Source: Candidatus Doudnabacteria bacterium
GTDB lineage: Bacteria > Patescibacteriota > Doudnabacteria > UBA920
Assembly: GCA_016218585.1 (NCBI GenBank)
Contig: JACRDK010000020.1
Location: 1 to 55,353, forward strand
Reading direction: 5' to 3'
DNA: 55,353 bases
Part shown: positions 22,707 to 39,803 of the stretch, in pieces
How the letters are laid out: each line of letters begins with the position of its first letter
How positions within the stretch are numbered: position 1 is the first letter of the stretch
Program-made: the position numbers and the translations under genes
The notes under the pieces: generated by a model
Databases searched by the model: none
The model's input: only the letters and a program-made list of their open reading frames with translations
Told to the model about the DNA's origin: nothing

Positions 22707-23079
22707 ACCAAAAATCCTTTCCGTCCAAGAATCCAAAACGATAATGCGTTATGCGGGGTTGAAGGCGTTTTTGTAAATTTAGCCGTGGTCCCGAATATCC
22801 GACTTAACGTTTTAAATTTTGGCAATTTAATTATAGATCGCGGATGCGCTGATGTTCACAGATTACGCAGATGCAATGTATCTGTAAAAAGCAAAAGCAC
22901 CCGGACAAACTAACAGGGTGTTTTTTTTGAAGACTAATATTTAGTTTTCTATTTTTATTTTAACAAAGTTTTTTATTTTAGCAAATTGTGGATAAGGTGG
23001 GGCCTGAATTAGGAATTAGGAATTAGCCTGCCCTGTCTACCGATAGGCAGGCGGCAGGGAATTATGGGGGAGGGGAGAT
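22707..23079. other. spacer: glnA leader, bidirectional hairpin, repeats
   Basis: No convincing gene. It holds the upstream region of glutamine synthetase; an ACAGATTACGCAGATG-type repeat (22858-22888, related to 51655-51700); a hairpin with CACCC/GGGTG and T runs (22904-22930); a perfect DnaA-box-like TGTGGATAA (22987-22995); tandem GAATTAG units (23009-23027); and a folded CCTGCC...GGCAGG palindrome (23028-23058) of the type also inserted in mnmA. Confidence 0.5.
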
Positions 23080-33347: not shown

Positions 33348-34226
33348 ATGAAAAAAATAGCCATAGCAGTTTTAATAATTTTATTAGCCGGTTTGGGCTG
33401 GTATTTTAGGAAAGATTTGCTGGGACTGGCAAACCGAAATTTATTGGCCATAAAAACCGACATAAAAAACAGCGGCATTATAAATAAAGTGGAAGAATCG
33501 GTTGGCCAGGTTTCCACTCCAACGCCGTTGGTAAGTTCGCGGCAAGGCTCTGGTTCCGAGTTGAGCATTTCCGGAGTTATTAGCTGGACTAATACGCAAA
33601 GAAAACAAAACGGTTCCTTAGCCCCTTTGGCGGAAAATAAAAAGTTAGACGCAGCCGCTAAAGCAAAATTGGAAGATATGTTTAAGCAACAGTATTTTGA
33701 GCACGAATCGCCGCAAGGCGCGGGTCCGGCGGATTTAGCCAAAGCAGCCGGATATGTTTATATTGCCATTGGAGAAAATTTGGCCTTGGGAAATTTTGAT
33801 AACGACAAGACGTTGGTGCAGGATTGGATGGACAGCCCCGGACACCGGGCAAATATTTTAAACAGCAAGTACGAAGAAATTGGGGTAGCGGTAGGCGAGG
33901 GGAATTATCAGGGAAAAAAGGTTTGGCTGGCGGTGCAGGAATTTGGTCGTCCGGCTTCAAGCTGCCCAAGCGTTGATTCTAGTTTGAAAACGGAAATGTC
34001 CAGCCTGCAAAAAGAAATAGACCAAATGGAAACTTCCATGACGGCTCTAAAAGCAGATATCGACTCGAGCAGCCCAAAAACCCAAAGCGAAGTTGACGCC
34101 TATAATGCCAAAGTCGCGAGTTATAACAGCCAGGTAAAAATTTATAATAACAAAGTTGATACTTTAAAGTCTTTAACCGAACAGTATAACAGCCAGGTAA
34201 AAGCTTATAACGGATGTTTGGATTAG
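33348..34226 (+). CDS. secreted CAP-domain protein with C-terminal coiled coil
   Basis: 292 residues. Membrane anchor near 3-17, a linker, and a CAP/SCP domain (about 78-205): NTQRKQNGSLAPL, FEHESPQGAGPADLAKAAGY, GENLALG, WMDSPGHRANILN, and the strand WLAVQEFG. The conserved His and Glu of the CAP cavity are present. The last ~75 residues (SSLQKEIDQMETSMTALKAD ... YNSQVKAYN) form a coiled coil. Extracellular role unknown. Confidence 0.85.
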   Translation: MKKIAIAVLIILLAGLGWYFRKDLLGLANRNLLAIKTDIKNSGIINKVEESVGQVSTPTPLVSSRQGSGSELSISGVISWTNTQRKQNGSLAPLAENKKLDAAAKAKLEDMFKQQYFEHESPQGAGPADLAKAAGYVYIAIGENLALGNFDNDKTLVQDWMDSPGHRANILNSKYEEIGVAVGEGNYQGKKVWLAVQEFGRPASSCPSVDSSLKTEMSSLQKEIDQMETSMTALKADIDSSSPKTQSEVDAYNAKVASYNSQVKIYNNKVDTLKSLTEQYNSQVKAYNGCLD

Positions 34227-38528: not shown

Positions 38529-39803
38529 ATGAAAAAGCCGCAAGCTAAAAAAACTAAAAAAGTGCTAATCGCTCGCAACCCTCTCTCCCGCTCGCTTCGC
38601 TCGGGATCTCTCCCCCAAAAAGGGGAGAGTAGAAAAGTGCTAATCGCTCTATCCGGAGGAATAGATAGCGCGGTTTCGGCGTACCTTTTAATAAAACAGG
38701 GTTATCAAGTAGAAGCCGCTTTTATGAAAAATTGGTCGTCTACGGCCGGACTTTTAAAAAACGAATGTCCCTGGCTGGCGGACCGCCAGGAGGCTTTGCG
38801 CGTGGCCGCGTTTTTGCGAATAAAGTTGCACACTCTGGATTTTGAAAAGCAATACCAGGACACGGTAATGAAATATTTTTTTACCGAATACAAAGCGGGC
38901 CGCACCCCAAACCCGGACGTAATGTGCAATAAAGAAATTAAATTTAAACTGCTCTATAACTGGGCAATGAAAAATGGTTTTGATTATTTAGCCACCGGGC
39001 ATTATGCGCAAACTAGAATTAAGAATCAGGAATTACCTGCCCGCCATTTGCTGGAGCATCAGGCGACTGCAGGCGGGAGAATTAAGGGGAACAAGGCCTC
39101 AACCCTCAACCCTCAACCCTCTGCGCTACTGCGAAGCAAAGATGAATTTAAAGACCAAACTTACTTTATTTACAATATAAAATCCGAGCAGCTGCCCCAT
39201 ATTCTTTTTCCAATTGGCGGAATGAAAAAAACCGCGGTAAAAAAATTAGCGGATAAATTGCATTTGCCAAATGCCGGGCGAAAAGAATCAATGGGTTTGT
39301 GTTTTGTTGGAAAAATCAGGTTAAATGAATTTTTGGGCCAGAAGCTAAAACCTAAAATGGGCAAAATAGTTGACCAGGACGGACAAATTTTAGGCCACCA
39401 TGAAGGGTTGCAGCAGTTTACTATTGGGCAGAGGCAGGGGATTAAAGTCGGCGCTAATGGGCCTTATTTTGTGTTTAAAAAGGACTTAAAGGCTAACACC
39501 CTCTATGTAACCAACAATCCGGCAGATGAACGTCTTTTTGTAAAAGAAATCCAGCTTCACTCATTAAATTGGATTTCTCCGCACTATAATCTGGAATCTA
39601 AAATCCCTGCCTACCGGACAGGCAGGTATAATCTAACCGGCCGCTACAGACACCAAGGAGAGCTAGTTCCTCTTACTATTAGCAAAATAAAAAAAGATTT
39701 ATACCGCGTGGTATTTAACAAGCCGCAAAAAGCCGTGGCTTCCGGACAAAGCCTGGTTTTATATAAAGGAAAAGAGTGCGTGGGCGGGGGAGTAATTGTT
39801 TAA
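38529..39803 (+). CDS. mnmA: tRNA-specific 2-thiouridylase MnmA carrying in-frame repeat insertions
   Basis: 424 residues, longer than the usual ~360. Thiolates U34 of tRNA. The PP-loop is ALSGGIDSAVSAYLL (about 39-53); MCNKEIKF with the first catalytic Cys (about 136-143), ATGHYAQ, the second catalytic Cys in ESMGLCFVGK (about 255-264), and a C-terminal barrel (GQSLVLYKGKECVGGG) are intact. Three insertions by palindromic repeats keep the frame: 38575-38649, about 39020-39120, and 39603-39628. They fall at the N-terminus and in loops. Confidence 0.92.
   Translation: MKKPQAKKTKKVLIARNPLSRSLRSGSLPQKGESRKVLIALSGGIDSAVSAYLLIKQGYQVEAAFMKNWSSTAGLLKNECPWLADRQEALRVAAFLRIKLHTLDFEKQYQDTVMKYFFTEYKAGRTPNPDVMCNKEIKFKLLYNWAMKNGFDYLATGHYAQTRIKNQELPARHLLEHQATAGGRIKGNKASTLNPQPSALLRSKDEFKDQTYFIYNIKSEQLPHILFPIGGMKKTAVKKLADKLHLPNAGRKESMGLCFVGKIRLNEFLGQKLKPKMGKIVDQDGQILGHHEGLQQFTIGQRQGIKVGANGPYFVFKKDLKANTLYVTNNPADERLFVKEIQLHSLNWISPHYNLESKIPAYRTGRYNLTGRYRHQGELVPLTISKIKKDLYRVVFNKPQKAVASGQSLVLYKGKECVGGGVIV
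38558..38649 (+). repeat. palindromic element inserted in mnmA with 17-bp duplication
   Basis: AAAAGTGCTAATCGCTC occurs at 38558-38574 and again at 38633-38649. Between them are 58 bases with palindromes (CCCGCTCGCTTCGCTCGGG and CTCTCCCCC...GGGGAGAG). The 75-bp period keeps the reading frame and duplicates the residues KVLIA. This is the signature of an insertion with target duplication. Confidence 0.8.
39020..39121 (+). repeat. second repeat insertion inside mnmA
   Basis: Encodes about 35 residues not expected in MnmA between ATGHYAQ and the KDQTYF motif. Holds a foldable CCTGCCCGCC...GCAGGCGGG pair and three tandem CAACCCT units (about 39099-39119). Boundaries approximate. Confidence 0.65.
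39603..39632 (+). repeat. third palindrome insertion in mnmA
   Basis: CCTGCCT-ACCGGAC-AGGCAGG hairpin, encoding PAYRTGR in the C-terminal domain. Same class as 23028-23058. Confidence 0.65.

Follow-up and report, generated by a model that had tools for sequence, protein, structure and literature searches.

The window, a stretch of 55,353 nucleotides, is contig C16 of a 1.19-Mb, 31-contig Doudnabacteria genome (G000), which we compared within a family set of 22 genomes that includes it. Positions 38529–39803 of the forward strand, on which all features of the gene given below also lie, form a 424-aa ORF for the tRNA 2-thiouridine synthase MnmA, host of three in-frame palindromic inserts and uninterrupted by stops across its full length, inserts included. 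Its identity is supported by an NCBIfam score of 381.7 bits (cut-off 284) and a Pfam score also well over the cut-off, and solved MnmA structures match the ORF on either side of the second insert. An initial sequence-only reading had proposed three in-frame palindromic insertions with the catalytic motifs intact, and both parts of this proposal hold: the conserved motifs SGGIDS and CNKEIKF are present, and each insert consists of a palindromic repeat that is translated through, in frame, within a loop of the predicted protein. Alignment with relatives, which that reading had suggested as a check, revealed all three inserts as extra in comparison with most homologues. The borders of inserts 2 and 3 were refined to 39036–39077 and 39606–39626 respectively.

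Insert 1 (38575–38632) is a 58-bp double hairpin (38586–38606 and 38608–38629; fold z −3.05 for the 58 bp) that separates two copies of a host segment: copy A (38558–38574), the duplicated segment with the KVLIA codons upstream of the insert, and copy B (38633–38649), which encodes the original HUP-domain strand, KVLIALSGG. As first described, the 17 bp of AAAAGTGCTAATCGCTC are exact in both copies, with a 75-bp period that keeps the frame, and similarity extends over 20 nt at 95% from 38555/38630. Since exact 17-mer repeats within 200 bp occur at one other stretch only in the whole window (34122/34185), the repeat around insert 1 is not due to chance. That other stretch (34122–34202) holds an 18-bp direct repeat, 63 bp apart, in a 292-aa ORF (YNSQVK...YNSQVKAYN), in what resembles a coiled-coil tail and without a palindrome.

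MnmA was matched in 18 family genomes out of 22, and in 16 the N-terminus could be read. Among these 16, a duplicated KVLIA with a palindromic insert in between was found in four, namely G000, G006, G009 and G001 (the last a relative from the same genus, Candidatus Doudnabacteria), which represent four species of two genera; 11 lack the insert and have one KVLIA-type segment only, and G005 retains a remnant with the right part only (AAAGGGGAGAG). The two KVLIA copies are spaced by 75, 69, 69 and 105 nt in the four genomes, all multiples of three and stop-free, and G001 has a second palindrome nested within hairpin 2 of insert 1. Over 15 nt, copies A and B show 6 mismatches in G006 and 4 each in G009 and G001, whereas those of G000 are identical. 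Within copy A, all differences among the four genomes in the V-L-I-A codons are synonymous, with the preceding K replaced by N in G009. Because the body of insert 1 is homologous to the G001 insert (18 identical nt) and the copies have diverged in three relatives, the 17-bp identity in the window probably reflects an old duplication of host coding sequence that was homogenised later. The MnmA gene tree lacks resolution inside the family, and gains of insert 1 could not be counted from it; the inner sequence common to the carriers nonetheless argues for a putative single gain.

Outside mnmA, the uvrA gene of G004 has an in-frame 54-bp relative of insert 1, which would encode NPLSPSLRSGHSLPKGE as compared to NPLSRSLRSGSLPQKGE in MnmA, and a related piece occurs in alaS of G007 (both gene names read from sequence). 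An insert-1 pattern search of the 22 genomes returned only G000, G006 and G009, with G001 missed through the gap limit of the pattern. Four other CTCTCCC..GGGAGAG sites in G000 were considered as further copies of the element and set aside, their contexts looking like those of terminators. The related copy of the 58-bp element in G004 uvrA has no duplicated flanks, identity there reaching 5 bp at most. This bears on the suggestion, made in the sequence-only reading, that the duplication is a clue to transposition, that is, a true target-site duplication generated by a transposase moving the 58-bp element into mnmA. The exactness of the repeat in the window, and the presence of two KVLIA-type segments in the four carriers and one in the 11 insert-free genomes, are as this would predict. 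Against it, divergence of the copies in three of the carriers implies that their identity in the window is not fresh, the uvrA element lacks matching flanks, and four insertions of another palindrome family, described below, are clean. We therefore consider a target-site duplication at insert 1 unlikely.

Insert 2 (39036–39077), a 42-bp imperfect palindrome (CCTGCCCGCC...GGCGGG), has an unexceptional fold z of only −1.30 and is accompanied by short heptamer arrays. AGAATTA AGAATCA GGAATTA lies immediately to its left (39015–39035), with one more AGAATTA at 39078, and CCTCAAC repeated 3.6 times occupies the same loop at 39097–39121. On contig C22 of G000 (L170), a membrane-protein-like ORF of 406 aa has an in-frame copy with 93% identity, and another copy, 95% identical over 61 nt including the heptamer flanks, is found in a 289-aa glycosyltransferase-like ORF of G002 (L180), both labels being read from sequence. 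Elsewhere in the window, at 23006–23058, a GAATTAG array of three units is followed directly by a CCTGCC palindrome, in a layout like that at insert 2. In the MnmA of G017 (L013), a near-identical insert peptide, LSVSxxDISPKGGEKDR, occurs twice, in two different loops.

Insert 3 (39606–39626), which folds into a single hairpin (z −3.21), is a 21-bp member of a genome-wide CCTGCCTRCCGGCAGGCAGG family and a clean seven-codon insertion, whose removal leaves WISPHYNLESKIYNLTGRYRHQ, of the same length as in G006 and G001. The pattern CCTGCCN{2,30}GGCAGG occurs at 46 sites in G000 (overlaps counted) versus two for the reversed control pattern. For a count of copy lengths, 31 distinct matches in the stretches examined were reduced to 25 by dropping six with an edit distance >4 from the consensus. 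All five copies in verified genes are 21 bp long, and the other 20 measure 20 bp (14 copies), 16 bp (four), 19 bp (one) and 21 bp (one, a near-copy of a composite in uvrC). Lengths are therefore multiples of three in 5/5 coding versus 1/20 other copies (Fisher p 1.1e-4), where the five coding copies correspond to four distinct 21-mers, those in MnmA and TsaD being identical on opposite strands, and where the 5/5 is partly survivorship, given that a frame-breaking 20-bp copy in a gene would not be classed as coding. Because frame-breaking copies would escape the coding class in this way, the 21-bp coding lengths show a frame filter rather than a targeting rule. A separate REP-like family is present in the 1.1-Mb genome of G005, with 35 sites of CCCTCTCC..GGAGAGGG, of which nearly all are 21-bp hairpins and one is located in tsaD.

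Besides mnmA, the genes of G000 with an in-frame CCTGCC copy are those for UvrC, TsaD and one protein each of the PGI and FemAB families, as identified by family calls. The TsaD insert faces a seven-residue gap in 18/18 aligned relatives. In the PGI-like protein (matched in all 22 genomes, 20 of them aligned), a hairpin insert is present in G000 and G016 only, and solely in G000 does a CCTGCC palindrome nest within it. The FemAB-like loop (12 genomes aligned of 20 with a match) is occupied by heptamer arrays in several genomes and, in G006, by another palindrome. Among 19 aligned of 20 genomes, the loops of UvrC are highly variable, and the uvrC composite has a 65-nt copy on contig C22. In three of these genes (MnmA, TsaD and UvrC), 79 insert segments of at least eight residues, delimited automatically with rough borders such that several inserts are cut or non-palindromic, had a mean stem of 6.11 versus 4.90 in 220 same-gene controls, stems of at least 7 in 29% versus 13%, and a mean fold z of −1.31 versus −0.26. 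The repeats dispersed in frame through other genes, here and in relatives, and presumably different in sequence from Rickettsia palindromic elements, bear out the likeness to those elements that had been proposed for mnmA.

How the palindromes enter could be read from empty sites. Insert 3 and the TsaD copy amount to exactly seven codons more than in relatives. Two further CCTGCC copies, of 20 bp (L119:10449–10468 and L161:5623–5642, on contigs C8 and C29 of G000), interrupt 5′ tRNA fragments, at AGAG^CGTTGC and GGCAGA^CACAAACG, for which the intact adjoining tRNAs provide the uninterrupted sequence. We had considered that these palindromes might interrupt working tRNAs, but ARAGORN, Rfam and the sequence itself identified the hosts as 5′ fragments that adjoin intact tRNAs (tRNA-Val, tRNA-Leu) and were apparently left behind by integration at tRNA genes. 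In these comparisons, the four empty sites (insert 3, TsaD and the two tRNA fragments) show CCTGCC palindromes entering cleanly, without target duplication. A duplication of fixed length, as made by MITEs and DNA transposons, was absent from all the empty sites compared, and a host duplication was seen at insert 1 only. Direct repeats of at least 7 bp do flank 14 of the 31 CCTGCC matches, against 9% for mismatched pairs of flanks, an excess also expected from a duplication mechanism; in the cases inspected (FemAB and insert 2), however, they are heptamer arrays. Target-site duplication was accordingly rejected as a general rule, with empty sites that are clean and with the inspected flanking repeats being arrays that are also present in relatives. 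Inverted arms of at least 7 bracket 7 of 25 CCTGCC copies, against 11% for mismatched pairs, as would be expected if copies nest within older hairpins.

Insertion of the IS200/IS605 type proceeds through single strands and is not known to leave a target duplication. A Y1 transposase gene is present in 14 of the 22 family genomes, including G000, where it lies at C29:54292 and scores 77.2 bits with NF047646, just under the 80-bit cut-off for REP transposases; CCTGCC or CTCTCCC hairpins were absent within about 1.2 kb of this gene (3-kb locus L245). Because transposases of this class are not known to make target duplications, we favour a single-strand HUH/Y1 transposase of the REP type as the most likely carrier of the palindromes.

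Could the inserts instead have arisen locally, through slippage during replication and template switches at loops, with no transposition involved? Such growth would fit the heptamer arrays that occupy the same loops in relatives, the enrichment of flanking direct repeats, and the palindromes with the same core and different arms that share one TsaD site in G016, G009 and G001. It would not readily place the same palindromes at unrelated loci, as with the 42–61 nt copies of insert 2 together with their flanks and the 65-nt uvrC composite on C22, and we regard it as improbable, to about the degree of the target-site duplication at insert 1. The TsaD palindromes (L189, L191 and L198) have the common core ACGGCCGT, in an arrangement suggestive of inversion and duplication of the flanks on either side.

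The frame is open through all the inserts, whose translation itself we infer, so that peptides such as NPLSRSLRSGSLPQK and IPAYRTGR would be added to MnmA loops, and LPTGQAG to TsaD. In an AlphaFold2 model computed with 26 sequences (mean pLDDT 78.4), most of the core is confident, with pLDDT <50 at MnmA residues 1–31 and 167–195, at inserts 1 and 2, and about 60–71 in blocks of 351–370 around insert 3. Since the segments of low pLDDT fall at the inserts and the core is confident, the inserts are predicted to lie outside both the folded core and the conserved motifs. A reading of insert 1 as untranslated leader would have MnmA begin at 38636, the GTG in copy B; GGGGAGAG, which belongs to hairpin 2 and is suitably spaced upstream of that GTG, would act as ribosome binding site, and the hairpin would regulate translation. 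This codon is GCG in G006 and GTT in G001, neither of them a start, so that initiation at copy B was discarded; moreover, four spacings that are in frame and stop-free, and a copy A whose V-L-I-A codons vary synonymously, make a leader quite improbable. It is less probable still that the loop peptides are functional extensions selected for a role in the protein, for despite the retention of insert 1 in four species of two genera, every site differs greatly in content from one species to another, inserts are missing from most relatives, and the structure prediction gives these segments low confidence or a loop conformation.

Taken together, the data are best explained, with a probability that we put at about 0.8, by mnmA having gained three short, non-autonomous REP-like palindromes at loops, which were kept in frame and translated, the 17-bp repeat being separate and old. 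Short palindromic repeats of several families would insert at surface loops of MnmA and persist where their net length is a multiple of three and free of stops, giving rise to extra loop peptides. On the evidence of the CCTGCC family, the palindrome would enter as a clean unit without target duplication, presumably carried by a single-strand HUH/Y1 transposase of the REP type; judging from single cases, its entry points would often be short heptamer arrays or the loops of earlier hairpins. The 17-bp repeat, from its comparison among relatives, would be a separate, old duplication of host sequence that was homogenised in G000. More tentatively, and at somewhat less than even odds, we envisage an ongoing, family-wide invasion of Doudnabacteria genes by several families of cleanly inserting palindromes, often into heptamer arrays or hairpin loops, which pass the frame filter as 21-bp units of seven codons and write new loop peptides into core enzymes. 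If true, this would constitute an extensive system of protein-coding palindromes outside Rickettsiales. The present case extends the notion of selfish DNA in protein genes to an uncultured lineage with reduced genomes, in core enzymes such as MnmA, TsaD and UvrC. The empty sites are good enough for studying repeat insertion and the frame filter, and loop peptides of Patescibacteria may be derived from repeats rather than functional, with consequences for annotation and phylogenetic alignments.

Several known systems resemble the one described here in part. With REPs and REPINs, the CCTGCC family shares GC-rich palindromes of ~20 bp in many copies, mostly intergenic (20/25 outside verified genes), and a genome with a Y1 transposase. 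REPs are described as rarely overlapping coding regions (PMC12306157) and as having a GTAG/GTGG foot beside the hairpin (PMC6006769); the CCTGCC flanks, read by eye, have no such foot in common, and the Y1 gene of G000, unlike the RAYT (TnpA-REP) of REPs, is without flanking CCTGCC or CTCTCCC hairpins. ERIC, NEMIS and RU elements, bacterial MITEs with reading frames, are small mobile repeats that form in-frame fusions with genes, and most of them have TA ends and target duplications (PMC2229807). The palindromes described here are likewise small repeats in frame but have neither TA ends nor target duplications.

A search of the open-licence literature returned no report of protein-coding palindromes in Patescibacteria, and as far as that search reached, what is new is the lineage, the small units, of REP size and from several families, the empty sites that are clean, and the difference in frame-compatible length between coding and other copies. 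The closest parallel is with the palindromic elements of Rickettsia and Wolbachia (RPE/WPE), described as in-frame palindromes of housekeeping genes, solvent-exposed, at shared sites or hotspots and with uvrC among the hosts (PMC3767692; PMC4224334; PMC2229807). The likeness lies in the in-frame palindromes of conserved protein genes (MnmA, UvrC, TsaD, PGI-like and FemAB-like), and relatives with the same extensions do have the repeat DNA, the opposite case having been named by the sequence-only reading as one that would speak against it. RPEs are given a length of 100–150 bp (PMC3767692) and a "?" for target duplication (PMC2229807), whereas the palindromes here, set apart by length and lineage, measure 20–58 bp, belong to several unrelated families in Patescibacteria and include one family whose insertions are clean. 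By analogy, then, the MnmA case works like RPE/WPE while apparently lying outside those sequence families.
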